NCBI RefSeq assembly: GCF_052324685.1
Contig: NC_135225.1
Coordinates: 14,588,110 to 14,652,109 of the forward strand
Origin: Brachyhypopomus gauderio
Taxonomy: Eukaryota > Chordata > Actinopteri > Gymnotiformes > Hypopomidae
Direction: 5' to 3'
DNA length: 64,000 nt
The notes below the pieces were generated by a model. That model was not told the DNA's origin. It saw only the letters and a program-made list of their open reading frames with translations, and made no database searches. The position numbers and the translations under genes were made by a program. Within the stretch, counting starts at the first letter, position 1, and each line of letters starts with the position of its first letter. This document shows positions 16,107 through 61,838 of the stretch, in pieces.

Positions 16107-19100
16107 ATGTCGGCTACCAGAGGAACAGTAAGTAGCCGCGCTACCTAACAGTGTTTTTATTGTGCAAATCCAAATGCAGGTTAATTAAAAGCCCCACTGA
16201 GGTCGCAGGTTCTTTAATATATAAATGTGCAGCACTAACGCCGCGTGTTTACTGTGCAGCCTCTGAGGACCCACAGAACTCCTCTGCGCGATGTGCAGAA
16301 TGAAACGTCCACTACACAGCGACGAACTCCAGCTATTAAATTACCGGACATCACTGACCCTCAGGTCAAATTGTATTCAGTAATGAAACCTGACCCTATG
16401 TACAATTGATTGAGAATTTTGGTAACATTGTCTCTTCCGTCCAAACAGACCGAGAATCTGTGTCGTCTGTCTGGACCGATAGATGACTGGGCCACCATCA
16501 CCGGCCCTGCAACAAATGTCGGCTGCAGAGAAGAAGGTTCAGATTACTTGAACGAATATCAAGGAAATGTCACCTTCAAATCTTTCACATGTGCAGGAGG
16601 GGAAGTTGAACTTTCAGAAGAATCTGGAATGTCTGATGAATCTGCTGTCATTGGAGCTCTAACGCTGGAAGACTGTCCCCAGACGTTCAATATTACAACT
16701 GTAATATGTGAAGAAGATACTGAGACTGCCTTCCGTGACCTGGATAAACATGTTGATCATCCATATAGTAGCCACCCCTGTGATGAGCCTAGCTCTGAGT
16801 TAATTATGACTCGGGATGCGGAGAACCAGGTTCAAGGGGTTCAACAGTCAGACACTGTTTTGTCTGCAGTGTCCGGTCAGACAGAGGCAGCTTCTGAGCA
16901 GGCAGACATCACCTTTAAGTCCTTCTCTTGTCCAGGAGGAGAGATTCAGATTGCAGATATGTCCCTCGCACAAGATGAGTTGCTTAATGCGACGGATGAA
17001 GCAAAGGATGAATTCCAGAGCAATGAAGATGAGGGTGAGATTGAAGATGAGAGTGAGGTTCTCGATGAGCACCCCGGACTCGCGCTGCAACCCAGCCCCC
17101 ATATGGACCACCCCTACTGTCAGCACGACCTGGAACCTCTCAGCCCTACACCCAATGGTTCTGTCAGCCCCAGGTCCGCAGTACTATGCCCCCCACAGGA
17201 GTCTGAGTCTGCTGTTGGGGACCCTGCATACTGTGCTCCAGAGCTCAACACTGCAGCAGAGATTCCACTAGTGGATGTTCAGGGAGACCTCACGCTGAAA
17301 TCACTGTATTACTCTGGAGTTGAGGTGGAGATAGAGAATGCAGACATACAGTCCGAGATGTCTGTGCTTATGAAGGACCTGACCCTGGTTAGTCTTCTCC
17401 AGTCCTCCCTGGGCTGTGACGTCATTCTAAGCGAGGGAGAAGGAACTGCAGTTTTGAGCTCGGGGATCAAACATGCGGATCATCTCTACTGCCACGCTGG
17501 AGACGGTGACATAGGCAGAAATGACCCCGCCCCTCCCTCGGCCCCGGAAACGCCCATCATTTCAGAGTTTACAAGTACCTCCGGCTCACGATGTCTCTCG
17601 GCTGGCTCTCTGGAAAGTTCTGAGACGAATGTGCCAGATCTTGCTGACGCAACTACCAGCGGGTCACAAAAAGTCGTTGGCAGCGCAGTGGAAAGTGAGG
17701 TCTCCGAGATCTCCACAGAGCTTCCAGAGGAGTTGCTTTCTAGCACAGAGGAATCCATCTGGAGCGTTTGTTCTTCTCTGCTGCGTGGCAGTGGAGATGA
17801 GGCAGAAGGTCTTGAAGCCCTGCAGTGTCACATTGCTGCTAATGTTGACGCAGCCAGTGAAGGTCTGTCAGCCTCGTATGGCCCTCCTGTGTTTGACCCA
17901 GCTGAAGTGCAGTTAGACTCTCCTCAGACTCCATCAGAGAACAGAGAAGTTCTTTTAGATGTTTGTAAAAGTGCTGAATCCCGTTTCCACACAACTGACA
18001 CGCCTGCTGAGAATTTTCCGGCCGAATCTGGAAATGTCGGAGGGAGAAACGTTGCCGTGGAGACGAGCGCCGGCAGAGACAGTGCCCTGGGGCTGAGTGG
18101 AGACCACGCCCACACCGACGTGGAAGTCCTTCGCTCTGAGAGCGCGTGCGATGGGCCGTGCGAGCCCGCTTCTCTGCACACCCAACTGAAGCGGTTGAGT
18201 GCTACCTGTCTCCCTGACCCCTTGACCCCCAGGAACCTCCTGAGCGTTGTGCGGGCGGACTCGGAGAGCAGACTATGGGCGGAGCTCTCGGACAGCCCCA
18301 TACCACCACCACAGTTCAACTCCACCGCCCTGCCCTCCACCCCCGCACCATGCCCCAAGCCCAGGGAGAACCCGTCACAGCGGGACCGGGCCCTGCTGGA
18401 TCTGTCTGCCATGGGGAAGGGCCCTCTACAACAGCAGCTGCGCCACATGGCCGAGCTGCTTATTCTGGCCTCCGGGAAGATCGCCGGTCCGGCCACTCCT
18501 GCACCAGGACGCTACTGCAGCGCTGAGGTAGCCACCTCTCCTGTGCAGCAACACAGCGCCTGCGTGTGGACCACTCCGGTACTGCAGGCTGACACGAGCA
18601 CCAACACTTCTGCCCAGATGGAGGTGGTGAAGGACGTTCATGTGTCTGATGCCTGCACTTCCACTGACCCGCTGCTGTGGAGGTGAGTCATCACACCCCG
18701 CTGATGTGTAGACTTAATAATCATCCGTCTTTATAATTGAACAACTATATAATTCGAATTTTCAGTACAATTAAAACTGAAATTATGGGACGACAATGAG
18801 GCCTAAAATTATATTATAATAATTTGTAACATTTATAATGCATTTGACAAGGAAACATGTTATTCAATAGGACAATGTAGTTCTTAAGGTTTGAGTTCGT
18901 CTTTGCAGCTATTTAATACTTAAATAATTTATACATTTCTAAAACTTGAGTTCATTTCTAAAAAGTTCAGTTCTATATTGCGCTGACCGTATGTAGTGAT
19001 GGTGTTGTGGTTGTCCTTGTGCCCGCTCCCACCATGCAGTGTGAACCCCAGCAGTCTGGAGACTCTGTCCAGATCACAGCTGGAGCAGAAGCTCCTCACC

Positions 19101-22100
19101 ACTCTCATCATGGTGGAGGTCCTGTCTCAGCAGCTCTCCTCCACCCAGGCCTCCTGCTCCAGGGTCAGCACCGCCCCCTCTGACCTCAGAGATTGCCTCG
19201 TCCAGACTGACCACACCCAGCTCAGCCAGGTAAGAGTGGGGGCGTCCAGGTACAGGCAGTAATCTACGTGTGTGGGATTGCATTCAAACCAAATCCTCCA
19301 TTTACGTGACTGTCCTGTGTTGCTTATTTATTATATAATTAATGAGTTAATTAGTATTATTATTTTAGGCAGGGCCATACAGAGAGCTGTATGTGAGCGC
19401 TCTGGAGAGGATCAGAGCTCTGGAGGATGACCAGGAGACTCTGGGGAGTTTGCTTCAGGTCCTGCAGCATGTGACTGGCACTCTGGTAGGCCCCGCCCCA
19501 CCCTGCCCCGCCCACACTTGCTCTGTGGTATGTTAGTGTCTGCCATGCTGAGATCTGCCTGTGAAACTGTCCCTCCACAGACCAGCGTCAGGAGCAGCAC
19601 GGCCGAGACCCTGGGCAGCCTGAGGCAGGTCGAACGCCTCGTTAATGATGACCAGGAAGTCCTCTCCAAGCAGGTGGGACTATAAAGTATGGACTATACA
19701 GTATGGACCGCTAGGAGCTGGGCTGACCAGTGCAGGATGGGTTCCTTGGTCCACTCAAGGGTTCTTCGTCCTCTCTGCCTAGGCAGTTGTTTAGTTGCCA
19801 CTGTTGCCCCTGGTTTGCGCAGATGTCACTGATAGTCGTGTGTGTGTGTGGGGGGGGCGTGTTTAGGTTCGTGAGATGAAGGCTCTCTATAGCAGGTGTG
19901 TGGGGACTCTGAGGAAGATGGAGCAGAAGACCAAGGCCTGCTTACAGGAGAGAGAGGACATGAGAGACCGCATGAACGAAGCAGTGAACGAGAGACTTAC
20001 GGTATCTCACCGTACACATGCACGCGCAGGCGTACACCATACACGCACCTGGCATACACCATGAGTACGAGAATGGAGGAGGCACTGTAGGAGAGACACA
20101 CCCTGACGCCTTATACCACCACCACACACCCTACACGCACCCTGACACCTTATACCACCACCACACACCCTACACACACCCTGACACCTTATACCACCAC
20201 ACACCCTACACGCACCCTGACGCCTTATACCACCACCACACACCCTACACGCACCCTGACGCCTTATACCACCACCACACACCCTACACACACCCTGACA
20301 CCTTATACCACCACACACCCTACACGCACCCTGACGCCTTATACCACCACCACACACCCTACACGCACCCTGACGCCTTATACCACCACCACACACCCTA
20401 CACACACCCTGACACCTTATACCACCACACACCCTACACGCACCCCCTACACACACCCTGACACCTTATACCACCATACACCCTACATACACCTTGACAC
20501 CTTATACCACCATACACCCTACATACACCCTGACACCTTATACCACCATACACCCTACACACACCCCCTACACACACCCTGACACCTTATACCACCATAC
20601 ACCCTACACACACCCTGACACCTTATACCACCATACACCCTACATACACCCTGACACCTTATACCACCATACACCCTACATACACCCTGACACCTTATAC
20701 CACCATACACCCTACACACACCCTGACACCTTATACCACCATACACCCTACATACACCCTGACACCTTATACCACCATACACCCTACATACACCCTGACA
20801 CCTTATACCACCATACACCCTACACACACCCTGACACCTTATACCACCACACACCCTACACACACCCTGACACCTTATACCACCACCACACACCCTACAT
20901 ACACCCTGACACCTTATACCACCATACACCCTACACACACCCTGACACCTTATACCACCATACACCCTACATACACCCTGACGCCTTATACCACCACCAC
21001 ACACCCTACACACACCCTGACACCTTATACCACCATACACCCTACATACACCCTGACGCCTTATACCACCACCACACACCCTACACGCACCCTGACACCT
21101 TATACCACCACCACACACCCTACACACACCCTGACACCTTATACCACCATACACCCTACATACACCCTGACGCCTTATACCACCACCACACACCCTACAC
21201 GCACCCTGACACCTTATACCACCATACACCCTACATACACCTTGACACCTTATACCACCATACACCCTACATACACCCTGACACCTTATACCACCACACA
21301 CCCTACACGCACCCCCTACACACACCCTGACACCTTATACCACCATACACCCTACATACACCTTGACACCTTATACCACCATACACCCTACATACACCCT
21401 GACACCTTATACCACCATACACCCTACACACACCCCCTACACACACCCTGACACCTTATACCACCATACACCCTACACACACCCTGACACCTTATACCAC
21501 CATACACCCTACACACACCCTGACACCTTATACCACCATACACCCTACATACACCCTGACACCTTATACCACCATACACCCTACACACACCCTGACACCT
21601 TATACCACCATACACCCTACATACACCCTGACACCTTATACCACCATACACCCTACATACACCCTGACACCTTATACCACCATACACCCTACACACACCC
21701 TGACACCTTATACCACCACACACCCTACACACACCCTGACACCTTATACCACCACCACACACCCTACATACACCCTGACGCCTTATACCACCATACACCC
21801 TGACACCTTATACCACCATACACCCTGACACCTTATACCACCATACACCCTGACACCTTATACCACCATACACCCTGACACCTTATACCACCATACACCC
21901 TGACGCCTTATACCACCATACACCCTGACGCCTTATACCACCATACACCCTGACGCCTTATACCACCATACACCCTGACGCCTTATACCACCACACACCC
22001 TACACACACCCTGACACCTTATACCACCACCACACACCCTACATACACCCTGACACCTTATACCACCATACACCCTGACACCTTATACCACCATACACCC

Positions 22101-23614
22101 TGACACCTTATACCACCATACACCCTGACACCTTATACCACCACCACGCACCCTGACGCCTTATACCACCACCACGCACCCTGACGCCTTATACCACCAC
22201 CACGCACCCTGACGCCTTATACCACCACCACGCACCCTGACGCCTTATACCACCACCACACACACCCTGACACCTTGTGTGTGTGTGTGTAGGTGTTGCG
22301 GGTGCTGGAGCAGCTGCGTGCCCATCACACTGCGCAGGTGTCGGAGCTGCAGGAAGAGGTCGGATCCCAGCAGGTCCTGACTGCTGCTCTCACACACACT
22401 CATCCACAACTGGTGAGCAGCGCACATCCACCCACAGAGCACTACCTCTTCCTCCACCCCCTCTCACTCCTTCACTCCACCCCCTCTCACTCCTTCACCC
22501 TGCCCCCCTCTCACTCCTTCACCCTGCCCCCCTCTCACTCCTTCACCCTGCCCCCCCTCACTCCTTCACCCTGCCCCCCCCTCACTCCTTCACCCTGCCC
22601 CCCCCTCACTCCTTCACCCTGCCCCCCCCCCCCCCCCCCCCCTCACTCCTTCACCCTGCCCCCCCCCCCCCCCCCCCCCTCACTCCTTCACCCTGGCCCC
22701 CCTTCACTCCTTCACCCTGGCCCCCTCTCACTCTTGTTCTGTGGTTTATTTGTGCCGTGTGGTCAGGTTGAGCTGAACCGGTCGAGTGTGGAGTCCGTCA
22801 GTGCTGCCTGTGTCCTCCTCAGAGAGACGACGGAAGACCACGCTCACCTGGCTGAGGAGGTGTGACACCTCCCCTCCTTCTCCTCCTCCTCCTCCTCCTC
22901 CTCACCCACAGAGGTTTAGCTGAGGCTCACGAAGAATGCTCTTGACTTACGATTCACTCTTGAGCTGTTGCTGAAAAATAACACATGGACGATATGTGAC
23001 ATCTTAAACATGTTTATGAAGTTTTTTCTTAATGGAGCAGTCACAAATGTATGTCAAACATGTTATCACAGCTCACTTCTGCATTGACTGCTGAGTGTGT
23101 CTGAGTCTTTTGAATGGAATTGCAGTCCCAAGGTAAATTTGTGCTCTTTCCTCTGCGTGTTTAGCTGCATAAAACTCATCAGCTGCTCCAGAGGACGAGC
23201 GCAGTACTGTCCAGGCTCCAGCAGAGGGCGCTAGCTGCAGTGGAGCAGAGTTGGCAGTACCAGGCAGAGAGAGACGCAGCACTGGAGGACAGAGGCCAGG
23301 TCAGGCCTGTTCACCAGCCTCACCCACTCACCATCTAACTCTCCCCACCACCACCACTATTGGAGGGAGCCCTGCTCCTTGGCTCTTGTCTTACTCCACC
23401 CTTCTCTCTGTGGTACCCAAGTTGGAGACTGAGCTGCAGCAGACCCAGTGTAGCCTGCGAGACGCCGACCTGCACATTGCAGACCTGAACACGCAGGTTA
23501 CCATCCTGTCTTCAGGTGGGAGGACTGAGTGAGCCGGCTTGAAGTAATGGAGCATAACGTTAGATGGTCACATGGGCATAACCAATATTTGAGATGAACA
23601 GGAGACTTGTATTA

Positions 23615-23660
<46 letters not shown>

Positions 23661-25275
23661 ACAGAGATGGCGGTTCTGCGTGAGCAGTTGGTCGAGGTAG
23701 AGGAGGAGCGTACTCAGTTGCAGGTGAAGAGTACGGAGCTGTCGGCGACCGTCTCCTCCTCCCTTGCCTCCTACGCCTTTCTAGAGCAGGCCCTCGCCTC
23801 CGAGACCAGCAAGTACGAACTCCACCCTTGAACTCCTCCACCCTTGAACTCCTCCACTCACCTGAGCTGTGTTTGTTCTACACACACGTACAGACTCGGT
23901 GATGTGTTCCATACTGCAGCTCAACTGCTGCTCTGGTGTTTATCACTGCAGGTTGCAGCATTCTCTGCATGAATGCCAGGAAGCCACGGAGAAGGCCAGC
24001 ACGTATGTAACCCACTACCACACACGCATACTCCTGCTACCACACACGCACACACACACACACTAGTCTACTCCCGTTTGTTCACTTAAGAGTCGGTCCA
24101 ACTCCTGCAGGAACTACACATTGGTATAGATGGACCTGGCTGTCGTACACTTGCCTATACATAACAGACTGGAGTCATGAGTGTGGAAGGGAAAGCCAGT
24201 AAATACTTGTGATAGATGAATGACTGGCACACCTTCCATGACATCAAAGGCCCCAAATCACTACCTCCACCCTCACCACTAGGGGGCATGAGCTGCATAC
24301 GTGCGCCCTCACCACTAGGGGGCATGAGCTGCATACGTGCGCCCTCACCACTAGGGGGCATGAGCTGCATACGTGCGCCCTCACCACTAGGGTTCCTGAG
24401 CTGCATACGTGCGCCCTCACCACTAGGGTTCTCTGAGCTGCATACGTGCGCCCTCACCACTAGGGTTCTCTGAGCTGCATACGTGCGCCCTCACCACTAG
24501 GGTTCTCTGAGCTGCATACGTGCGCCCTCACCACTAGGGGGCATGAGCTGCATACGTGCGCCCTCACCACTAGGGGGCATGAGCTGCATACGCGCGCCCT
24601 CACCACTAGGGGGCATGAGCTTGATATGAAACGTATTAAAACGTAATGGCCCTGGAGCAAGGTAAACCCCTCTATGGAACGTACCACTGACTGATAAGAG
24701 GGGGAATTGACATAAGACAATCACAGGACTGAAGTACAGCACAGAGCCAGTAATTATGGCAACACAAGATCAAGCACTAAGCATTAGGCCATTCAGGGGA
24801 GGATCACATTGGACAAACTTCAACATGCGGAAAACAACCATTATAATAGATGTTGGACTCTAAAGTGATTAAAAGATCCAAAAGTAAGAATATGAGGGGG
24901 GGGGTACTGAAACAGGAGGGGTAGGAGGTTGTCCAAGTGGTAATGGGGTCACTTGGGGCTGTGACCCCTGAACTGCAGGAGTGTCTCCAGCAGTGAAGTA
25001 AACTGAAGTAGAAAGCAGCAGTGCCATCACGCCTCGTCCCTTTGGTAGCTTGAGGACCATCTCGTGTGTGTGTGTGTCCTTCAGCCTCCAGACTGCTCTG
25101 CAGGAATCCCAGCGGCGGGTGGAGGAGCTGGAGGAGGTGCTGGATCAGAGGACCGCCCTGCTGACCCAGCTCCACGCAGAGGTGGAGGCTCAGCGTCTGC
25201 AGCTACGCCGCCTCTCACAGGTGGAGTCTGAGCTCTTCAGCGCCCGGGAGATGAGTGAGGTGAGACCAGGAGCCT

Positions 25276-25341
<66 letters not shown>

Positions 25342-25376
25342 CAAAACTGCCTGCTCCGTCGGCACACTTGCATATT

Positions 25377-25412
<36 letters not shown>

Positions 25413-25657
25413 TTATAGTTCCTGCAGGTGGAGACCGAGATGAGCCGTGAGCAGCTGGTCGAGAGTGAGAACCTCCTCCGCTTACACCTGCAGGGGCTAC
25501 GGGAGAGAAACCTGGAGTGTGAGGACCTTAGATTGGCCCTGGAGCAGCTCCGGTAACTAACCACACACACACACACACACACACACTCCTGTTGTACAGC
25601 TGATTTTTTTTATTTATTATTTTATTATTATAACAATCAATCAGTGAACATGGGGTA

Positions 25658-25690
<33 letters not shown>

Positions 25691-28600
25691 TCTGGAGAGG
25701 GCCTCTCTTCAGGAGGAGGTGGACGGCACGCGTGCTAAAGCTCGCAGCATGCTGTTGGAGCAGGGGGAGCAGCTGGCTCAGGCCATGCTGGACGTGTCCC
25801 TCCTCCACAACCGTGTGCGCAGCCTCACCTCCACCACCCGCAGCTACACCACCTCCACCACGGTACGTCTGCACTGGCCTCCGTCCACCACACCCACTTC
25901 ATCCCCATGGCGGCAGCAGCACGTTCCAGAGGGTCTGGGCTCTCACGTTGATGCGCTTGGACACGCATGAGCTGCCCGTAGTTAAAGAGCTCGACACCAT
26001 GTGCAGGCCTGATAGTTTTCAGGCGCCACGCCGAATTCCGGTGTACCGACATGTCCGCGAGAAAAAAAACATTTGAGGGGGGAGGGGGGGGGGGGATCCG
26101 TCAAATCATAATGATAAACCACACGCGCGCGCATGCTATCTGTTTTGAGGCCGAAATATGATCCTTATGATCCTTACGAGGTTCCCAAGTTACGATTTTT
26201 CGTGGTTACTACACATCTCCCATTTACTGTATAAAGCCTCGTTTGGACCTAAGTGGTTCTGCGTCGTAAACGAAACTTGGTGTTTGGTGTGCGCGGCGTC
26301 AGGATTAGTTAAACGCAGCTATGGATAAAGGTATTTGCCAAAAGGCTAGCTTTAGGATAGGATAACTGCGTGTAGTACGTTATTTACGTACAGTATGTAC
26401 GTATGTTCCGATTTACACCGAAAATTGATTTACGACGGATCAATGTCGTAACCCGGGGACCGCCTGTATTTCAGACATCGGAAGAGCTTCAGAGGTAGAT
26501 ACAAGATAAATTCAGTATTTTATCTTTATTCTGATTTACGTTAAATTTTTATCAGAAATATAAGTGTTTTTTTTTTTTTTTTTTTGAGCCGGTACAGGCA
26601 GGGGCGCAGATGGAAATTCTGAAGTGAGGGGGACCAAGCTGTACTATATATATATATATAATATAAATCTTATAATAATAATAAGATATATATAATAATA
26701 TAAATCTGGAGGGGACATGTCCCCCTCCGTCCCCAGTGCCATCTGCGCCCCTGGGTACAGGTGGTCAGACGATCTGGTTCATCCTGGCCGCCTTACGGCG
26801 TAAGGTGTAATACATGAACAAAAGCACAAAATGTATGTCCTAATAAACCAACACAAAATATTTATTAAATTTACACACTTTGTGTGTTTGTCTGGTTGTT
26901 TGGTTCCTTTTGGGGTTTGTGTGTGTCTGTTTTTTTGTTTACTCGGTAAATGTTGACGATTCGTGTAGGGGCTTCCGGTTCCTTTCTCATCACAGCCTCA
27001 AAAATAACGTAAAATGTCTGTCGTTTTTCACACTCCCTGTGGTTATTATGAAGTGGTGACGCAGTGGTGCGTCTCTTGTCCACAGGACTGCTGGCCCTTA
27101 CGATCCTCCCGTGTTTTAGTGCTCACACCAGGGTCTCTTCAGTCTCTTCCCTCAGTTACTCCTTTCACCCCAAGGAGGTCATCACCACCACTGCTGCCTT
27201 TGGCTTTGATAACGCTGTTTGGAGATGGTATCTACTGTTAAAAGCAGAAGTTCTATACGTTGGAAAACTCACTTCACTTGTGCTGTTCCCCCAAATTGAT
27301 GTCCCCAGAGCTCTGATCCTGCAGGCCTGGACGTGGCTGCCCAGCGCCCCCTACAGACCCCCCGCCGACCCTGCACGTCTTTCCTCAACTCCGTCATGTT
27401 GGCCCTCACTGAGGAGCAGCAGTGTGAAACAGTGCCACCTGCAGATCAAGGTCTGTTACTGCATTGCGTCCCACTCTGACGTCACTGACCTCCATCGCAG
27501 TGCTGGGGGGGGCTTGTCTTGGCTTCGTGGGCAATGTCAGCACGAGCTGAAGTGTCTCTCTGTGCACCTGCAGGGGAGGCGGAGCCGGGCGATGTCATTG
27601 GTGGGAGCAGCAGTGCCTTCACACGCATCACTGTGGCTGTACCCCAACATGTTGAAGGTACCGTGGGCCTGGCTTCCTCAGCCCTGCCTTATCTTCACCA
27701 CCTGGATCTCTCCCTCTCCACATTTGAATATCAAATACTAACGTGAAGGCTATGTCTCCATGCAAACAGATTTCACTTATATTTTTGTTATGCAAAATTA
27801 GTAATTCAAACCTTTTGGGACAAGATGTATTTTCAGATTGTACGGCAGAATGCATTTGTTGCGTGCTGTGAGGAGGGCGTGTTCACCCTCAGGGATGATG
27901 AGTGCATTCACACTGGTCACACTAGTGATTTACCTGTGCCTCCACACAACACAGATGTCTGTCATCTGTCTTGTTTTGCTGTGTTGTGCAAGATCAGCTT
28001 GTATTGTACTTCATGGTTGATTACATGCCGTGTTTTATGTGTTTTGTGCTGTTATGTATGTCATGTCTTGTGTGTGTAGAGGAGAGCAGTAACACACTTG
28101 TGGGGCTGGTATCTTCTCTGGGAGACAGTGTGTCCGATTTCCAGTCTGCTGTCCAACAGCTGAAAGAACATAAAGACTCTGAAGTACAGAGCCTGCAGAG
28201 TGAAGTGTAAGACCAGCCTCTCTCTCTCCTTTATGATGTCAGACCAGCCTCTCTCTCTCTCTCAATTCAATTCAATTCAATAATGCTTTATTGGCATGAA
28301 TGTAACCAGGTACACTATTGCCAAAGCAGGCAAACAATATACAAATAAATATCATTTAAAAAAAATACAATACAAATCAATATAAATCAATACACAAAAT
28401 AATAAAACTACTATTACTCTACTACTACCACTAATACTACCACTACTACTATAACTACTATTACTGCTACTACCACTAATAACAACAATAATAAAACAAT
28501 AACAATAAAAACAGATACAATTATAATAGATATATATATATATCTATATATTCTATAATATATCTATAATATTTAACTCTATATATTCATAGAGTTAAAT

Positions 28601-30520
28601 GAAATGGTAGTTTCAGTATTTATGAAATGTAATTAATTGAGGGGGGGGGGATAATATTTTTTTATTTTTTGTAATAAGCTTTGGAGAAGGGTGGGATTAA
28701 ATAAGTTTTATACTTCTTCCCATTCCTTTTCAAATATGTAAAATTGTTTTGTTATCTGTTTTATCATTTGTTTTGTTTTTGGTTTTCCATATTTGAAATA
28801 AACATTGACATTGAATAGATATTTACAGAGAGAATGATTATAATTAATTGTAACTAACATGAATTGAAGGAGAATAAGTCTAGGGAGACGTTATAAATGT
28901 ATAATTAATCAGTAATAATCAGTTACTACTGCTCTCTCAAGTTGTGGCAGTCTGTTATGTATTGTGCTGCAAGTTTGATCAGCTCTTTCTTCTCTCCCAG
29001 TATGTACTGGAGCTTCTCAGAGTCAGTGCAGAGCTGGAACTCTGGACAGACTCTACTGGCTCTTAGGTAGAACCTGGATCTGATCCGCTCATACTTGGAG
29101 CACTCAGTCAGGAAGTGCTGCTCTGTCTCCACCACAGAGAGCTCACAGTGAGAGCACAGCCTCGCCTCTCTGGGGGTCCACTTCTGCCTATGACGGCCTG
29201 TCTCGATGGCCAGATTGTGCTCACTGAGTCGGTACCTGGTCAAGATCTTCCTCAGTGACCTCTCTTTGATGTCTGTGAGGTACTGGGCCAGTGTGTACTC
29301 TCGGTTGAGGGCCAAGTAGCACTGCAGTTTGTGTTGTTGTTGGGCAGTGTGGGTCCAGTGTGTGAGGTAGTGATGTTTGTGTTGGGTTATAATTTGATTG
29401 GGTCTGATTTTGCGAGTGAGTGTGTAGTGAGGATGTTTGTTGTCAGTGATGTCGTTGGGTTTTAGGCCACTGAGGGTCATGACCAGCTGGCTGAGGGGAC
29501 TCCTGTCGATGTTGAGCTCCTGGCTGGACAGTGCTTTGTAGTGCAGTGATTGGGGGTCACTGGATTTAATGTGCCTCCCGAAGTTCAGAGCTCGTTTGTG
29601 AATGGTGATCAGGAGGTCTCTCTCTCTCTCTCTCCTTTATGATGTCAGACCAGCCTCTCTCTCTGTCTCCTTTATGATGTCAGACCTAGAGGTGTATTCA
29701 ACTAAGGATTTTCATAGTCCAATCTGATTTGTCAGATTTTCCGAATCGGGTTTTTTTTTTTTTTAATCTAGAGCACCTTAAATGTCTTATTTTTTTAATG
29801 AAACGTTAGAGAATATTAATAAATAAGTCACCGTCAGTGCGCATATTGAACTGTCCGATAGGCACTGTGCAAAATGTCAAATATTTTAAATAAAATATGC
29901 CAGCCTGAAAATATTTTTAAAAATTGCCACACAACAGCAAAAAAATTTTAAGGAAAGGTTCAAGTAACAGGGTTTAAAAAGCAAACAACAACAAAAAATG
30001 TTTATAGGCCTACTTGCCGAGACGCACCGCGACACGACGAGACGACAAACGGCCGAACTGTTTTCTTTTTCGCCTTGCGCGTATTAAATGGTATGCCATA
30101 TTGGTGCAAAATGAAAGACATTGAGGAGATAACTTGCACTTTTTCAAAATACCTTTGAAGTTTTTTTAGTAGCCATTATAATCTCGGCAGATGCTGACTA
30201 TCCTGTAGCGCGTTCAGCTCCGCTCATTTGGATTGTGCAACTACAGGGTGTGATTTATTAATGTGTAGTAAGAAGATGCCTATTGTAAATGCGCACACAT
30301 CATTTAAAAATATTTATTAACAAATTAGGATGATGTTATTTGACAAAAGGCTATATATAATGAAAACAAAGACGTTTCATGTAACAACTAATGCTTAGCA
30401 GCATCCTTGGTCACCCCCATGCAGTTAGAAGGATACATTCGACTATGACGTTCATAGACGACTAGGGGGTATAGTCGACACTAGTCGAATAAGCGACTAT
30501 TGCAGGTCACCCCTAGTCAG

Positions 30521-30576
<56 letters not shown>

Positions 30577-33500
30577 TGAAGTGTAAGACCAGCCTCTCTC
30601 TCCTTTATGATGTCAGACCTCTCTCTCCCTCCCCTTTTATGAAGTGTTAGACCAACCTCTCTCTCTCTCTCTCTCTCTATGCACTCACACATTTTCTTCA
30701 CCCCTCATAGTTCATGAGTCAGAGCGTTAAAGTGATCCATTGACCAGTCATGCTTCATTAACCACCTCTCTGAGTCCTCAGCACTGAGAACCACTTTGCT
30801 CCCTGCTGTTGTTCCAGCCGTAACCTGCAGGAGGCACTGCAGGCAGAGTCTGACAGGCACATGGAGGCGGAGGCGGAGCTCCGGCAGCAGGTGAGCCGTC
30901 TGAAGGCTCAGGTGGAGAAGGGCACGCAGGTCCTGCATCAAAAGACACAGGTGAGTGACGGGTGTCCCACTCTAACCCCCACCCCTTCAGACAATCTCAG
31001 ACACCTCAGCAGTGGCAGCTGGAGGAGGATGAGTGTGCCCGTCTGTGTGTGTAGAGGGGCGGAGTCTGTGTGTGTAGAGGGGCGGAGTCTGTGTGCCAAG
31101 TGAGAGTGGCTTGGTGCTTTAGACAAATCCCGTCTGTCATGTTGAACTGTCACGCACTTCTGCGTGTATGACAGGTATGAAGTGTGGGTAGGCTAGTTGT
31201 GAATGATTTTTGACACATGGGGTGTGTGTGTGGTTAAGGAGGAGAAGGCTCTGAGGAAGCTTTGCAGTGACCTGGAGGAGACCGTGCAGACAGAGCAGAA
31301 ACACAGAGCAGAGAACAGTGTAAGTGACCGCCCTGTACACTCCTGCGCACTCTTCACAAACCCACACACGGCCCCACCACTCACCCCCCACAGCCCTACT
31401 AAGCAGGGTTGGTCCTGGCTATAATGGAGGTGGAGGTGATACCGTCGTGATCAGGTGCACATCAGGACATACACCTGCCTGCAGGCCGCTCCACCAAACT
31501 TTTTTACAAGCAACAGATTTTAGGCATTCTAATAAATGTATAACTGATGGAATTGACTCACGTGAAAGCATATTTTATAAAGATAAAATCTAAAGTATCT
31601 TGCTTAATATTAAATTTAAAAGAAATGTTAATTTTACAGTGTGTGTATTCAAAATCATTCCATCTGCATACTCCACTCCTTCCCAGGGCTGCTAAACGTC
31701 TTGGACAGCTGTGTCCTTGCTTGTTTAGTTCGATGTTCGTAATTTTTTATGTATATATTCCTTGTGATTGTGTTGCTAGGAGCTGCGGCGTGAAGGGGTG
31801 GAGTTACGCCGTGCACTGCAGCAGTCCCAGGTAGAGGTACAGGCTTTGAGGGAGGAGCTACTGCGATCAGCCAACCAAACATCAGCCAGCACAAAGCAAC
31901 TGGATGACAGGATTCACCTACTCAAAGAGGTACTCGAGGTTGTGTAGGTGAAACATCAGAGCAGCATCTGAATCATTTTAATAATTACATTTGTTCACAT
32001 CTGATATCATCACACTGTACATTTAATGTAACTGGCACTAACTAGGGATGCACCGAATATTTGACAGCCAAAATTATTCAACCAAAAATTACTTAAAAGA
32101 ACCGCAAACCCCAATTTTACTACAACACGATAAAAACCCAGTTGTGAAGTGAGGCACTTTGTAACTGCAGCTAACACAATGTCTGTGGAAGTATTTAAAA
32201 ATGTTGGAGAACGATCCGAGGACAGACGTTGGCAGACATTGTTCTGCTTAATTATCAAGAGGTGGAATATCAGCAAGGAGTAGTAATATTTTATACTTAC
32301 ATTTGTTTATAAGATGAAGATATTTTGGGAAAGGTGTTATATATGAATTAATTCTCAACACAATTTTTTATGCACTCTTAGCAAACAGCTTTATTTCAGA
32401 ACTTTAGTTCCTCACTCTGCATATGTGAGAATGTCTTCAGGATGGATGGAAAAGCATCATAGGTGCTGCTTCATGAAGCTGATTACATCACCTTCTTTTC
32501 ATTGGTTTTCTTTCATTGGTCGGCATATTCCCTGTTTTTTATGTTGAAAATAATAAAAATTAAACAGTAGATGTGTCCAAACTTTTGACTGGTAGTGTAT
32601 ATAGTTCAATAAATAATTTTAAATTGCAGTTGTCTTTTTTTGCTTTTTTCTAACCAAAACAAAAATATACAGAGGTCTAATAGTGGCAAAATGAACGAAC
32701 CGCTGTGAAAGACAGTATTCGGCCTACGGCCAAGTGTTTCTTTTTGTTTGGTTTGTATGTATGTACATTTTGGTGCATCCCTACTAGTAACAACAGATGT
32801 AGTAGTACTAACAGTAGGAAAACAGTAGTAGTTGTAGTAGTAGGTAGTAACAGTAACTACTACCACTGTTACTACTACTATTGTTACAACTACTACTAAC
32901 AGTGGTATTGGTGGTAGTAACGGTAGTAGTGATTATAAGTTATGGTAGTATTAGTAGTAATAGTAGTAACAATGGTGGTGGTGGTGGTGGTAGTAGTAAC
33001 AGTAATAGAAGTAGTAATAGTGGTGGTTGAAGTAGTTGTAGTAGTAACAGCAGTAGTAATGGTAATGGTAACAGTATTAGTGGCAGTAACAGTAATTGTA
33101 GTAGTAGCAGTAATAGAAACTAATTGTAACAGTATTAGTAGTAATGGTAGTAGTAGTAGTTTCAGTAGTAGTAGAAATTACCATTAGCTTAGATGCTTAT
33201 AGTGGTGATGGATAAACTATAAACATAATGGATGAACAGCTCTGCAGTATTTTGCTTTGCCCACAGGTGGAAAAACTTAAGGTCAGCCTGACAGAAGTGG
33301 AGGAGTCCAGGACCAGACTATTGGAGCGGGCCAAAAGACACGTAAGACCTCCGTCCTCCACCATCCAGTACAGCTTTACAATGCAAACAACATCCTTCAT
33401 TCTGATGCTCCAAAGGTGTTCAGCTAAAAGTGTTAATAAATCTAAATGTAGCATTGTTGGATGCTACAGTACCACAAGATATAGATCTTTTTATATCTTG

Positions 33501-34054
33501 ATGAACAGGTCTGATGTTTTTACCTGATGTATTTATTATTGTTAACAATAACTATTTATTATTGTTAATTATTGACCCGCATTACTTCTGACTTGCACTT
33601 TTACATTTTTTAGTAAAATTTTTGTGCATTTGAAAAGCTCCAGCTATTTATTTTCTGGAAAATGCACAGAGTACATCACAACCTTTTGTAGACATTGGGA
33701 TTGTTATATTTTGGGTTTTTGACTAATGAGATGACTAATCTAATCTCTTTCGCTCTCTTTTTCTCTCGTTCTCTCTAGCAAATGGTACATTCCATGAATC
33801 AGAGCAAACTAGAACGTGAGCTCCACCTGCTGGATGACATGATTGAGACTGTGAGAAAGGTGGAGTAAGGGTGGATTTCAGCCACTGCATTCAGACTCTC
33901 ACGCATGTGTATATGTGCGCATTCATTCAGATGCTGCTGTGACTGATCCTGTGCAATATATAATGGTTTTTGTCTCTTTTAGACACTGTCTTCCATCCCT
34001 GAAGTGGTGAAGAACAGCCCAGAGCTGCTGAAACTAGTGGACTTCATTGGATGA
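16107..34054 (+). CDS. spag5: Astrin / sperm-associated antigen 5
   Basis: Astrin is a microtubule and kinetochore protein needed for spindle integrity and chromosome alignment. I join 25 coding exons in frame to 1653 aa: 16107-16127, 16260-16364, 16449-18682, 19040-19229, 19369-19485, 19581-19673, 19867-20001, 22293-22412, 22767-22859, 23165-23299, 23422-23515, 23665-23812, 23952-24002, 25085-25259, 25419-25552, 25691-25862, 27309-27450, 27574-27657, 28080-28206, 30818-30950, 31239-31319, 31780-31929, 33267-33341, 33779-33859, 33983-34054. Anchors to human SPAG5 are RTPLRD near the N-terminus, the segment [25 protein letters not shown], and the C-terminal [19 protein letters not shown]. Exon 3 encodes a long acidic, low-complexity N-terminal half. 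Exons 4-25 encode a nearly continuous coiled coil. The protein is longer than human SPAG5 (about 1193 aa). The exon 11 acceptor (CCCAAG) is the weakest border. Confidence 0.88.
16449..18682 (+). other. spag5: spag5 large exon 3 with three internal protein repeats
   Basis: A single 2.2-kb exon encoding the disordered N-terminal half. A compound motif appears three times: T[FL]KS[FL]..[CYS]..G.E[VI] at about 16566, 16902 and 17284, each followed 150-200 nt later by H.DH.Y at about 16750, 17100 and 17470. The spacing is irregular, so it is a diverged protein-level repeat, not a DNA tandem array. Confidence 0.7.
20097..22275. repeat. 2.2-kb VNTR (36/39/25-bp units) in spag5 intron 7
   Basis: About 60 units built on CCTGACACCTTATACCACCA plus a CA-rich part. 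Units are 36 or 39 bp up to about 21780 (differing by one CAC), then mostly 25 bp, then 25-28 bp with CACGCA. Because 36 and 39 are multiples of three, long open frames appear on both strands ([13 protein letters not shown] repeats). They lie between well-defined exons 7 and 8 and are not coding. Confidence 0.95.
22440..22730. repeat. C-rich minisatellite in spag5 intron 8
   Basis: Repeats of CTCACTCCTTCACCCTG followed by C-runs, two of which exceed 18 C. The minus strand therefore has repeated G-runs. Confidence 0.9.
23617..23658. repeat. (GT)n before spag5 exon 12
   Basis: About 21 GT units ending six bases before the exon 12 acceptor. Confidence 0.95.
24003..25084 (+). other. spag5 intron 13 with CA tract at 5' end and GT tract at 3' end
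   Basis: Donor-proximal CA-rich tract (24017-24063) and acceptor-proximal (GT)7 tract (25064-25077). The interior holds a 36-bp minisatellite of CTCF-like motifs. Confidence 0.7.
24276..24620 (+). repeat. 36-bp minisatellite carrying CTCF-like cores
   Basis: Ten units starting at 24276, 24312, 24348, 24384, 24420, 24457, 24494, 24531, 24567 and 24603. Six have CCACTAGGGGGCA, a CTCF-like core. The four central units have the core changed to CCACTAGGGTTC, and some of these are 37 bp. Confidence 0.85.
25260..25418 (+). other. spag5 intron 14, (CA)n...(GT)n
   Basis: 159-nt intron: donor GTGAGA, (CA) tract 25277-25339, short spacer, (GT) tract 25379-25410, acceptor GGTTATAG. The two tracts are complementary in the transcript. 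Confidence 0.9.
25553..25690 (+). other. spag5 intron 15, (CA)n...(GT)n
   Basis: 138-nt intron: donor GTAACT, (CA) tract 25561-25586, AT-rich spacer, (GT) tract 25661-25688 directly abutting the acceptor AG. It has no ordinary polypyrimidine tract. Confidence 0.9.
26178..26468. mobile_element. Degenerate interspersed repeat in spag5 intron 16
   Basis: The right edge (CGGGGACCGCCTG) and interior (TTACGAC, TACGTA-rich) resemble a repeat often seen in fish genomes. Left edge and target duplication are not clear. Confidence 0.3.
26599..26753. mobile_element. 155-bp hAT-type MITE
   Basis: Inverted termini CAGGGGCGCAGATGG and CCATCTGCGCCCCTG enclose an AT-rich core. The element is flanked by a perfect 8-bp direct repeat GGTACAGG (26591-26598 and 26754-26761). 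An 8-bp target duplication and CAGGGG termini are typical of hAT elements. It has no coding capacity. Confidence 0.85.
28263..29620 (-). mobile_element. 5'-truncated non-LTR retrotransposon (LINE)
   Basis: The minus strand carries an open frame (about 29625-28926) equal to the C-terminal end of a LINE reverse-transcriptase protein. It includes a cysteine/histidine motif [20 protein letters not shown] near [12 protein letters not shown]. The 3' end is at the left, with a short tail of ATTGA repeats (CAATTCAATTCAATTCAA on plus). The 5' part is missing, so it is an immobile copy. Family not determined. Confidence 0.75.
29687..30515. mobile_element. 829-bp non-autonomous hAT-type element
   Basis: Ends are TAGAGGTG (left) and CACCCCTA (right, inverted TAGGGGTG). 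GTCAGACC is found immediately on both sides (29679-29686 and 30516-30523), consistent with an 8-bp target duplication. That octamer also occurs in the surrounding minisatellite, so the duplication is suggestive only. No transposase frame. Confidence 0.65.
32044..32785. mobile_element. hAT-like element remnant in spag5 intron 22
   Basis: Left end TAGGGATGCACCGAAT and right end TTTTGGTGCATCCCTA are inverted copies of a terminus common in vertebrate hAT elements. The flanks are no longer identical. The interior also contains TCCAAACTTTTGACTGGTAG, a phrase seen in other fish repeats, so insertions may be nested. Confidence 0.6.
32786..33187. repeat. Imperfect (GTA)n trinucleotide array
   Basis: About 400 bp of GTA/GTAACA-type repeats in spag5 intron 22. 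Its valine-rich open frame is an artefact. Confidence 0.9.
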
Positions 34055-56309: not shown

Positions 56310-56768
56310 CTGAAGCAATAACTACGCTGCAGATCCTGATTTTCCAGTAGAGCTTGCTGTTTATTTCAGTTACATTGAGCTTTATATTCTTTCCATTACA
56401 TCAAGTATGTTACTCACTAAAGGAGGAATCACTCGAGAATCATGAAAAAGAAACAAATCAAAATACATTGTGTTTGCTACTAAATCCTCCCTTCAGCAAG
56501 TAATCACATGTTATATATATATCTGTTATATATATCTATCTGTTATATATCTATCTGCATATACTTTATCACTTCTGCAGAAAGAACACAGCATTGCAGA
56601 TGTATTACCAAACACAGGATAACAACACAAAACACAAAAGAAAGCTACACACACACACCTCACTGAGGGTAACGCTGCCGCTGAAAAACAAGGCATGGAT
56701 GATTTATCATCTTCGAAGAGGACTATGCCCTCTGCTCCAGATTTATGCTCGTCACCAAACAGAACACC

Positions 56769-57222
56769 AGGGATATGGACCTGTCCAACACTCGATCTAG
56801 ATGTCGGGATATGGACCTGTCCAACACTCGATCTAGATGTCGGGATATGGACCTGTCCAACACTCGATCTAGATGTCGGGATATGGACCTGTCCAACACT
56901 CGATCTAGATGTCGGGATATGGACCTGTCCAACACTCGATCTAGATGTCGGGATATGGACCTGTCCAACACTCGATCTAGATGTCGGGATATGGACCTGT
57001 CCAACACTCGATCTAGATGTCGGGATATGGACCTGTCCAACACTCGATCTAGATGTCGGGATATGGACCTGTCCAACACTCGATCTAGATGTCGGGATAT
57101 GGACCTGTCCAACACTCGATCTAGATGTTGGGATATGGACAGGTCCAACACTCGATCTAGATGTCGGGATATGGACAGGTCCAACACTTGATCTAGATGT
57201 TGGGATATGGACCTGTCCAACA
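56769..57222. repeat. 36-bp highly homogeneous minisatellite
   Basis: Thirteen copies of GGATATGGACCTGTCCAACA plus CTCGATCTAGATGTCG. Most are identical; the last three share CAGG or TTGG changes. Open frames on both strands (for example GIWTCPTLDLDV repeated) follow from the stop-free unit. Confidence 0.93.
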
Positions 57223-57668
57223 CTCAGTCTGAAGCTTCTGATCCTAGCCAATCTCCAATTCTCACAAGCTGATAATCCCACCACTATGGATCACTATGGT
57301 CACCTGGTGGGCCTGGGGTGTCTTACACAATAAACCAAATGACAAATGTCAATCAAATCCACTTCCACATAAACAGAAATGGTAGTAATGAAACATCCCA
57401 GTGCAGCCTTCATGGTCGTCACAGCGACGGTGGGGGGCCACACGGAACCACCCGACCTTCCATCCACTGGAAACCCATGGGGCTCTCCACTGTTCTAGTG
57501 TGGCTCATAATGGTGTCCAGATTCGGGGGAGGATATGCTCTGAAATGGGAAGGGTAGATGGAGAGCCCAGAAGAAAAGCGAAGCATTTACAGGTAAAACA
57601 GAGACAGGGCGTCCCATCAGGGACAGCAGCGGCACAACAACACAACAACATAAGCTATGCTTCTTCAT

Positions 57669-58667: not shown

Positions 58668-61167
58668 TTAGTGTGGCAGGGCCACCAGGATGTCGACGTA
58701 GTTGACGGGGAAGAAGCCGGATTGGCCGTGGATCATACCTTCATACCAGTTCTCATCAATCTTATTGGTCAAGGTGATGACGTCGCCTTCCTTGAACCCT
58801 AGCTCACCTTCATTCTCGGGGTCGAAATCATACAGCGCCCGACAGCAGGGCTGGTCCATAGGAGCTGGGAGAGAGAGGGAGAGGGAGAGGGAGAGGGAGA
58901 GAGAGAGGGAGAGAGAGAGAGATAGTATTAGAGTAAGCACTCACATTTGGCTAGTGTCTGAGAGAGGTGCAGGTGTATCAGGCCTCACCAGGTGAGCGAG
59001 CAGGGCCACTGTGACCGATCCCCCCATTGAGATTCTCGCTGGTAGGGGTGAAGTCGATGGCGGTGCGTGGCTTGGGCACGTACTCCTTCCTGGGCTTATT
59101 GGAAGCATCTCTTATCCTGCATTTCACAGGACAGGACACACGCACACGGTCAAGACAGCAACACAGCAACAGGGCACCGCTAGCCTGCACCATCAGACCC
59201 AAATCTCCATGCATTGGTTTAAATGATAAAAATGTAAATTTTGTTCTAAATAGTTTTTATGTTTAGGACTAGGCTTAACTGAAGTATGTAAATCTTTATT
59301 TTCCCTGATTGCTAGCTGGCATGTGGGGAGGGCGTCTTCGTAACCTTACGCTGCTGGGGGTGCCGCGAGGTTTGGAACCCGCGCTGTCATGTTGTAAATC
59401 CATTAATCAACAAACGCTTCATGTGTCAGAGCCTAGAGACAACTTCACCAGGGAAGATACCACACTTCATCTGAACTTGACACAAAGGAAAAGACTTTAA
59501 TATTGGTCAGTCCCTTCTTTTCTATTTCCTTCTGTCCAATTGGTCAGCCCTTTGTTTTATGTTTCAATTATCCAGCTTATTGAGTAATCCTGCAGTATCT
59601 CCTCTGAGATATATAAATGAAACAGGATTCTTGGGTTAGTGAGCTAATTCTACCTGTAACGCAGGCTAAAAATATCTTGATGGTGGCTCAAAATCTAACT
59701 AGCTCAATCACCATAGCAACATAACATATTATAAGCTTGTCATGGAGAGTATGTTGCAGTTTAGTTTAAGTGAGTAGGAAGAGTGTTTTTTAACCATTCT
59801 GGTTGAAAGTGTCATAAGTGAGCAATACTCAGTAATGCATAAATCATAAGTGGGGAGTATGGGAGTTGTCTTCCTAACGTTCTTTATGCTCCCCGAGGTT
59901 CTTGTGCTCTACACTGGTAGAACAGGTAGAGTGGGGCACCAACAGTGGCACTCATGGGTTGGACCCGCCATCATACTGATTAATGTGTGTCAGGTGCTCT
60001 GGATTAAAGTGAACGACCAAGGCTGAAGGTTGAGGTATCTGAACACACATAAATCCGGAAGCCACGTGTTTCTCCCTCAGCTGAATTCAAAAGCCCACAA
60101 TCACCCTTTTTGTAAGTGCTCCTTGTAAAATCAAACCTGCCCAGCACACATAGACCAGATGCATCATTAAGTCGGTGCACACAGACCAGTTAGTGCACAT
60201 AGACCAGATGCATCATTAAGTCGGTGCACACAGACCAGTTAGTGCACATAGACCAGATGCACATAGACCACAGTACACACAGACCAGTTAGTGTACATGA
60301 CCAGATTCAGCCTAATCAAGTCTCAGCTTTCTTACACATTTTATACGTTTTATTTTCATGTGAGCGGTGGTGCAGCCTGCTCTAGCAGCAAACACATTCA
60401 GATCAGATGGATTCTGACATTTTCTATCGGCGCCTTCAATTTCTGTCTTTAACAAAAGTGTGATGGAGCAAATGTGCTCCAGCAGCAGTGTGGTTGGAGG
60501 TGGTGGGCGGAGCGGTGCAGCTACAGTGCGGCTCTGCGCAGCCTTCATGGATCTGACTCAAGCCTGCAGCTTCTTAGCCATTATATGTGTCACTGAATAC
60601 TAAGGCTAAGACTTCACGTAGCTGGTCCTGCTCTAGGGTGCATTAGGCCTAACTGGTGCTGTTTGGTCAATTCCGTCTTCTCCAGGAAAGCCTGGCGTCA
60701 TGACGTCTAGGCCAATATCAGTCTGAACCTGGTGGTGCTGTGTTAGGAGGCAGACCTGTCGTCCATCTTGCTGGTGAGCTGTTGCAGGATCTCTGTGGCC
60801 TGTCTGTGGTAGTCCAGCTGGGCCTGGACCAGGGCGGCCAACTGGCTCACCTGCTCAATCTGTTCCACACACACACGCGCGCACACACACAAACATGCAC
60901 GAACACGAGCGCACACACGCGCGCACACGCATACACGCACGCACACAGGCAAACATGCACACACATGTACGCACACACACACACACACATACACGCGCAC
61001 ACACACACACACAAACGCGTACATGCACACACACACGAATACAAATGCATACATGCACACACACACAAATACAAATGCATACATGCACACACACACGAAT
61101 ACAAATGCATACATGCACACACACACGAATACAAATGCATACATGCACACACACAACACACACATGG

Positions 61168-61250
<83 letters not shown>

Positions 61251-61838
61251 TGTGTACCCATGCCGGCACAGGCACACACACGCAGCGCATTCACAAGAGG
61301 AAATACAGAGCATAAAATACTGTGGAAAACTCGAATATCAATAACAATGTAACGAATGCACAACACTAATAAAAAGACACTACTGTACTACAAGTGACTA
61401 ATAAAACTAGAGGTCCAAATATGGACACAGATGTTACATAGTGAACTAATCTAATCTAATCTAATCAACAAGTAAGTTCAGGTAGTACAGGTCAGAAAAC
61501 TCCTTATTTTTTTATTATTAACAAGGTAAAAGTGGTGAGATGTTATTAGAAGTTGAGGTGGGCGTTTCATTCTGTGCACCAGGAAGCTAAAGAGGTGGGA
61601 CTACAGAAGACAGACAGCTTATTGAAAGGCCGTGATTGTGTGGTGGAAAACACATACACACACACTCACAAACTCTTACATCATTCTCCAGCAGGTTGAA
61701 CATGCTCTGCTCAGCTATCTCCTTCGAGTCATCGAACTTCTCCAGCGCCTGCTTGATCTCGTCCTCCGTCACTTTGCCCTGACGCTTCTTCTTGTAGTCG
61801 AAGTCCAGCCGACGGCCCTCCATCTTCTTAAGGTGGTG
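58668..61838 (-). CDS. sh3gl2: Endophilin-A1 (SH3-domain GRB2-like 2), C-terminal part
   Basis: Endophilin A1 is a presynaptic BAR-SH3 protein that binds dynamin and synaptojanin in synaptic-vesicle endocytosis. Four minus-strand exons: 61680-61838, 60756-60859, 58989-59116 and 58668-58864, joining in frame to 195 aa plus stop. The first two encode the end of the BAR domain ([24 protein letters not shown], then [20 protein letters not shown]). The third is the variable linker ([12 protein letters not shown]). The last is the SH3 domain ([39 protein letters not shown]). The ending ILVALPH is that of SH3GL2, not SH3GL1 or SH3GL3. About 157 N-terminal residues lie beyond the right edge. The last intron ends in a long pure pyrimidine tract ((GA)n on plus, 58868-58922). 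Confidence 0.92.
60160..60300. repeat. Short tandem repeat GCACATAGACCAGATGCATC
   Basis: Two 57-bp units plus partial copies of the ACAGACCAGTTAGTGCAC phrase, in the sh3gl2 linker intron. Confidence 0.75.
60866..61245. repeat. CA-rich array with 30-bp units
   Basis: A (CA)n-rich block. At 61020-61155 it has about four copies of ACATGCACACACACACGAAT plus ACAAATGCAT, then pure (CA)n to 61243. It lies in the sh3gl2 intron next to the exon at 60756-60859. Confidence 0.9.

Follow-up and report, generated by a model that had tools for sequence, protein, structure and literature searches.

What confines base pairing to the introns of a pre-mRNA when introns with complementary AC and GU tracts at their ends follow one another, so that every exon between them has GU and AC flanks? 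Introns whose ends are bridged by such tracts, the (AC)m-(GU)n class, have already been published, and two adjacent bridged introns surrounded by competing tracts pose a question that single introns cannot. The class was described in zebrafish, fish and lamprey (Lin et al. 2016, Genome Research 26:12-23, as cited in excerpts of PMC9024468, PMC7404189 and PMC9198270), which bears out the reports of AC/GT-bridged fish introns that a preliminary description of the present locus had mentioned. According to these excerpts, introns of the class are spliced without U2AF (PMC9024468, PMC9198270), and the AC and GT tracts enforce splice-site selection (PMC7404189). We analyzed a gene in which CA and GT tracts occupy the ends of three consecutive introns. 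On the predicted folding set out below, we lean towards reading two of them, introns 14 and 15, as adjacent members of the known class with ends bridged by CA:GU pairing.

The host gene and its introns

The host gene lies on the plus strand of the 64 kb window, which is the whole stretch of DNA analyzed. Its spliced frame runs from the ATG at 16107 to a stop near 33869 through 24 coding exons and encodes 1632 aa, and all 23 coding introns, as drawn in our gene model, are GT-AG. The preliminary description labeled the gene spag5, a name that we keep as putative. A Pfam search with the large exon gave no match, and for the 553-aa coiled-coil part a Pfam search gave sub-threshold matches only and a PDB search no match. 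The coordinates and lengths previously assigned to introns 13, 14 and 15 were correct, with GT-AG ends and a frame that stays open across each. The features concerned are as follows.

16107..33869, plus strand: coding span of the host gene, ATG to stop, spliced open reading frame open end to end
24003..25084, plus strand: intron 13, 1082 nt, GT-AG, in frame; proposed as bridged, weak
25085..25259, plus strand: exon 14, 175 nt, with GT13 and CA14 on its flanks
25260..25418, plus strand: intron 14, 159 nt, GT-AG, in frame; predicted bridged hairpin
25419..25552, plus strand: exon 15, 134 nt, with GT14 and CA15 on its flanks
25553..25690, plus strand: intron 15, 138 nt, GT-AG, in frame; predicted bridged hairpin

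By arithmetic, loss of exon 14 or exon 15 singly shifts the frame, and loss of both (309 nt) keeps it. Intron 14 is a multiple of three in length and has no stop in the host frame up to its acceptor TAG, so that retention of this intron would stop translation exactly at that TAG. Exon 15 has at its start (25413-25427) two in-frame acceptor-like AGs, TATAG and TGCAG, spaced by 9 nt, the extra one at 25427 lying downstream of the intron 14 acceptor.

CA and GT tracts lie at the splice sites

We inventoried pure CA or GT runs of at least 12 nt across the 64 kb and found 22 CA and 13 GT tracts, of which the host gene holds 3 and 6, respectively. The CA tract past the donor and the GT tract before the acceptor that had been described for introns 13, 14 and 15 were located in all three, and GT tracts absent from that description stand at the acceptors of introns 11 and 6. 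The tracts, named here by their introns, are listed below.

19838..19850, plus strand: GT6, 13 nt, ending 16 nt before the end of intron 6
22276..22290, plus strand: GT7, touching the intron 7 acceptor; pairs within the VNTR
23619..23659, plus strand: GT11, 41 nt, at the acceptor of intron 11; competitor for CA13
24041..24063, plus strand: CA13, pure part 24049-24063 (15 nt), 46 nt after the donor
25064..25077, plus strand: GT13, 14 nt, 7 nt before the end of intron 13
25277..25339, plus strand: CA14, 63 nt, donor +17
25379..25411, plus strand: GT14, 33 nt, acceptor -7
25562..25586, plus strand: CA15, 25 nt, donor +9
25660..25688, plus strand: GT15, 29 nt, adjoining the AG (-2)

CA13 is longer but interrupted when counted from about 24012. 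The placement of the tracts in this gene is well above chance. In all six introns with a GT tract (6, 7, 11, 13, 14 and 15), 2 to 16 nt separate the end of the tract from the intron end, and the three CA tracts start 9, 17 and 46 nt past the donors of introns 15, 14 and 13. Under random placement of each tract within its own intron the combined p is 5e-7 for the GT tracts and 0.009 for the CA tracts, by Fisher combination with the tracts assumed independent and with an intron 7 value that rests on an otherwise-VNTR intron; when the GT set is limited to introns 11, 13, 14 and 15, the combined p is 9e-5. When runs of at least 10 nt were counted over the 23 introns, GT runs ended within the last 30 nt in 7/7 cases and CA runs started within the first 60 nt in 3/3. 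The pattern is less pure at a threshold of 8 nt, where 8/12 GT runs fall within the last 30 nt and, among 27 CA runs, 3 are at donors, 23 occupy mid-intron positions in introns 7 and 12 and 1 is at the end of intron 7.

Such placement could arise from tolerance, if the tracts were neutral microsatellites that pair incidentally and leave splicing unaffected. A GT tract contains no AG, and half of it is U, so that it could substitute for a pyrimidine tract between branch point and acceptor, while CA would simply be tolerated after donors. Introns 6, 7, 11 and 20 have GT runs at their acceptors and lack a bridging CA partner. Indeed, no CA run of at least 8 nt was found inside introns 6, 11 or 20 despite the GT run at each acceptor, and bridging is therefore not needed to explain acceptor GT. 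An endophilin-like gene on the minus strand points the same way: its intron at 60860-61679 is GT-rich both past the donor and before the acceptor, and since the same GT tract stands at both ends, bridging is impossible there. Complementary CA/GT pairs of at least 12 nt also occur outside the host gene, in probable intergenic DNA around 48-51 kb, with counts outside versus inside the gene of 1 versus 2 within 100 nt, 5 versus 4 within 300 nt and 14 versus 8 within 1100 nt. What tolerance does not account for is that CA follows the donor only in introns with acceptor GT: at 12 nt, donor CA is present in 3/6 introns with acceptor GT versus 0/17 others (p = 0.011, from one gene), and at 10 nt in 3/7 versus 0/16. 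We regard tolerance as an unlikely explanation, if one to be taken seriously.

Introns 14 and 15 are predicted to fold as bridged hairpins

The preliminary description held that tract pairing brings the splice sites together in all three introns. We folded introns 1 to 15 of the 23 and compared them with shuffled sequences, using 20 shuffles for intron 13 and 3 for intron 7; introns 1 and 2 were folded with boundaries off by 2 nt and 1 nt. Introns 14 and 15 stood out. Intron 14 had a minimum free energy (MFE) of -77.4 kcal/mol, and in each of two runs 0/200 dinucleotide shuffles were as stable (z = -4.67 and -4.98). Likewise, intron 15 had an MFE of -59.5 kcal/mol, again with 0/200 shuffles as stable in each of two runs (z = -6.18 and -5.92). 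Intron 13 (MFE -360.4) did not stand out, as 4/20 shuffles were as stable, so that the energy argument is valid for two of the three introns and the earlier claim stands for introns 14 and 15 and is weak for 13. Shuffles as stable numbered 21/200 and 7/200 in two runs for control intron 12, 120/200 for intron 6 and 2/3 for intron 7, the last two being unremarkable; intron 11 was less stable than most of its shuffles (196/200 as good), and intron 8 had the lowest count among the remaining folded introns (12/200).

These energies can be set beside the published class. In the excerpted account, the MFE of (AC)m-(GU)n introns lies 50-100% below that of ordinary introns of similar length (PMC9024468). 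Introns 14 and 15 fall within that description when compared with five folded control introns of 122-149 nt from the same gene (1, 4, 10, 11 and 12), whose MFE ranged from -23.9 to -31.9, a control set that left out intron 17, of like length (123 nt). Two further marks of the class, an AC repeat near the 5' splice site and a GU repeat near the 3' splice site, are present in introns 13, 14 and 15 (at +46, +17 and +9, and at -7, -7 and -2, respectively).

Pairing of the tracts across the intron was then followed in a longer context, a 2347-nt stretch (23516-25862) that extends from intron 11 to exon 16. In this context CA14-GT14 kept 32.7 of 33 nt paired and CA15-GT15 24.5 of 25 nt. The CA15-GT15 pairing of intron 15 dropped to 11.5-18.6 nt in three other folded stretches, which are considered below. 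As a predicted structure, bridging of introns 14 and 15 by CA:GU pairing has good thermodynamic support.

The distance between the splice sites in the fold was less informative. Donor and acceptor were 13.0 steps apart in intron 14 and 3.6 steps in intron 15, compared with 12.7, 11.0, 41.0 and 28.4 steps in introns 12, 11, 10 and 4, four controls without a tract pair chosen from 21 other introns, with mononucleotide shuffles in this analysis. Because introns 12 and 11 give similar values without a tract pair, a small distance is not special to the bridged introns. The donor of intron 14 was itself mostly paired (unpaired 0.12) when exons 14-16 were folded.

A possible working of the bridge

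In the reading that we favor, the CA tract past the donor would pair in the pre-mRNA with the GU tract ahead of the acceptor to give a long hairpin. The base of this hairpin would hold both splice sites, which could then be paired off with each other even though no normal polypyrimidine tract stands beside the AG. The helix base would thereby help donor and acceptor to pair early, with the branch point carried in the enclosed part, and the helix of about 25-33 bp would later be opened, before the first splicing step. Opening would be needed because a branch point upstream of the GU tract sits past the far end of the helix. Formation of such a helix in cells, a benefit for splicing and a reduced dependence on U2AF2 are our inferences. 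The tracts of intron 13 are arranged in the same way, but here the stronger partners GT11 and CA14 probably take them up for as long as introns 11 and 14 are present.

The pyrimidine content near the acceptors counts in favor of bridging in introns 14 and 15. Scored over a 17-nt segment that stops 3 nt short of the intron end, the pyrimidine fraction was 0.47 for each of these two introns, compared with 0.65 for intron 13, 0.35 for intron 6 and 0.41 for intron 11; among introns 3-12 the remaining eight had values of 0.59-0.82. A branch-point-like site was found in intron 15 as a motif match only.

25600..25604, plus strand: CTGAT, branch-point-like site of intron 15

Its A is 87 nt from the intron end and is followed by a T-rich stretch at about 25603-25632. 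Both would be enclosed by the CA:GU helix, and in the predicted fold CTGAT is paired in an inner stem. The preliminary description had the GT tract of intron 15 touching the AG and replacing the polypyrimidine tract. The contact with the AG is as described; a T-rich stretch does exist, but it lies behind CTGAT, a site 87 nt from the AG that would be enclosed by the helix. A CAG is also present between CTGAT and the real acceptor. The last 120 nt of intron 14 contain no match to yTnAy, and since the same holds for introns 5, 11 and 13, this absence in intron 14 means little.

Introns 13 and 7

Bridging of intron 13 is doubtful. When this intron was folded alone, CA13 and GT13 paired over 12.0 nt, and in the 2347-nt context this pairing was absent. 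It reappeared (13.4 nt) in a transcript with introns 11 and 12 removed that ends at exon 14, and was lost again in a longer transcript. In context CA13 is occupied by GT11, and GT13 by CA14, so that intron 13 is not bridged at equilibrium.

Intron 7 had been put forward as a possible fourth bridge. This candidate was rejected, as GT7 pairs inside the VNTR and not with the donor end: its expected pairing was 0.04 nt with the donor end (20002-20100), 5.7 nt with 22200-22275 and 8.7 nt with the rest. We likewise rejected three bridged introns in a row as a structural fact, given the failure of intron 13 in the 2347-nt context. Of the earlier series of three with a possible fourth, two adjacent bridged introns are left.

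Predicted competition among neighboring tracts

The tracts of neighboring introns offer one another alternative partners. All folds reported here are equilibrium folds of naked RNA, with splicing order, proteins and helicases outside the model. In the 2347-nt context GT11 paired with CA13 in two parts of 14.3 and 22.4 nt (36.7 nt), and GT13 paired with CA14 over 13.4 nt, filling the spare part of CA14. A nascent transcript spanning 23422-24120 already contained the GT11-CA13 pairing (36.8 nt).

These pairings raise the alternative that the tracts act around exons, with GT11:CA13 enclosing exons 12-13 and GT13:CA14 enclosing exon 14, and thereby favor skipping or circular RNA. The extent of GT11-CA13 and GT13-CA14 pairing in context, and the presence of the former in the nascent transcript, speak for such a role. 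Against it, pairing within the intron wins for introns 14 and 15 in the same 2347-nt context (32.7 and 24.5 nt), and equilibrium folding disregards proteins and splicing order. We consider this alternative improbable.

The partner of GT15 varied with the stretch that was folded, as summarized here (nt paired).

2347-nt context, native CA14 length: GT15 remains on CA15
Introns 11 and 12 removed, longer transcript: GT13 on CA14, CA13 takes 10.0 nt of GT15, CA15-GT15 down to 18.6
Exons 14-16 alone: GT15 split, 17.1 on CA14 versus 11.5 on CA15
Exons 14-16 at 26 C: similar split, 16.0 on CA14 versus 12.7 on CA15
Introns 14-15 and exon 15 (25260-25690): tie, 13.5 on CA14 and 13.5 on CA15

CA14 (63 nt) is nearly equal in length to GT14 and GT15 together (62 nt) and would just accommodate both. 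We folded exons 14-16 with CA14 at eight lengths and all else fixed, a stretch that leaves GT13 outside. With CA14 at 17, 31 or 39 nt, GT15 stayed with CA15 (24.6-24.7 nt), and at 23 and 11 nt it was nearly all with CA15 (23.3 and 20.7 nt). At 47 and 63 nt GT15 was split, with 13.9 and 11.5 nt on CA15, and at 79 nt it was nearly fully captured, with 28.5 nt on CA14 versus 0.2 on CA15.

This series would fit a tract-length switch, in which the length of the CA14 microsatellite sets an isoform ratio through competition among the tracts in the row. Short CA14 alleles would give two clean intron bridges, and near the reference length CA14 and CA15 would compete for GT15. Alleles beyond that length would draw GT15 onto CA14 and place the intron 14 donor beside the intron 15 acceptor, from which skipping of exon 15 and a frameshift would be expected; farther upstream, a GT11:CA13 helix would tie the two ends of exons 12-13 together. 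However, the series was folded in exons 14-16 only, and in the 2347-nt context at native length GT13 occupies the spare part of CA14 and GT15 remains on CA15. We hold a switch of this kind to be the least probable of the readings considered. Length-dependent competition among tracts is nonetheless where novelty would lie if it were demonstrated, the class itself being already published, and should CA14 vary in length in nature, that variation would provide a graded test of pairing versus bound protein in splice-site choice.

Possible proteins or quadruplexes on the tracts

Known binders of GU tracts are TDP-43 and CELF proteins, and such tracts can instead fold into pUG quadruplexes; CA tracts are bound by hnRNP L. 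Tracts bound by protein or folded into quadruplexes could thus tune the inclusion of exons 12, 15 and 16 in place of bridging. GT11, GT14 and GT15 (41, 33 and 29 nt) amount to 20.5, 16.5 and 14.5 repeats and so exceed the 12 repeats needed for a pUG fold, a length that would also allow TDP-43 to bind densely; GT6, GT7 and GT13 fall short of 12. GT11, moreover, has no CA partner in its own intron. Excerpts of two papers add that human pUGs are enriched near splice sites and cite the binding of TDP-43 to the TG tract of CFTR as leading to skipping of exon 9 (PMC12276007, PMC12697283), and both points count in favor of a protein or quadruplex role. On the other side, the half-life of pUG folding in vitro is given as 13 min or more in the excerpted source (PMC12276007), and a GU tract would probably pair with a CA tract close by faster than it folds in this way. 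The locus differs from known pUG folds in that any putative quadruplex would face competition from complementary CA tracts in cis, and a protein role has no need of CA tracts at donors. We think a role of this sort very improbable as the main explanation.

Comparison with known systems

Introns 14 and 15 resemble the (AC)m-(GU)n introns, as far as excerpts describe these, in their donor AC, acceptor GU, extended hairpin, close ends and low MFE. Intron 15 is further likened to the zebrafish cep97 example, for which the excerpted account has the branch-point element masked in double-stranded sections (PMC9024468); its own branch-point-like element is predicted to be enclosed and paired. Unlike in the cases of the class published in these excerpts, two such introns are adjacent here, and neighboring introns carry tracts that compete or lack a partner.

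The UG tract at the CFTR exon 9 acceptor, bound by TDP-43, offers a second comparison. In the partial accounts that we draw on it is, like the GT tracts here, close to an acceptor, and in CFTR it is variable; the present gene differs in having long CA tracts past the donors of the same introns. Hefferon et al. reportedly made a structure proposal for this CFTR tract in 2004. Yeo et al. are likewise said to have reported, in PNAS in 2004, AC/GT words near fish splice sites, a statistical report, whereas a single gene is treated here. A literature search on repeats near fish splice sites gave nothing beyond the papers cited here.

Other features of the window

The host gene contains three minisatellites, at 20096-22255 in intron 7, 22457-22733 in intron 8 and 24270-24621 in intron 13, with units of about 36, 24 and 36 bp, respectively, and that of intron 13 comprises 9.7 copies that are 97% uniform. 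In the N-terminal part of its large exon (16500-18682), a short motif like TFKSFxCxGGEVE was noticed by eye in two clear copies and a diverged third. On the minus strand inside intron 19, a 236-codon open frame (28926-29636) resembles by eye what we take to be part of a non-LTR retrotransposon. The endophilin-like gene on the minus strand was recognized by eye from its SH3 and coiled-coil exons, and its intron at 60860-61679 is GT-rich for hundreds of bases up to the acceptor. A further minisatellite, at 56700-57250, is open in several frames on both strands.
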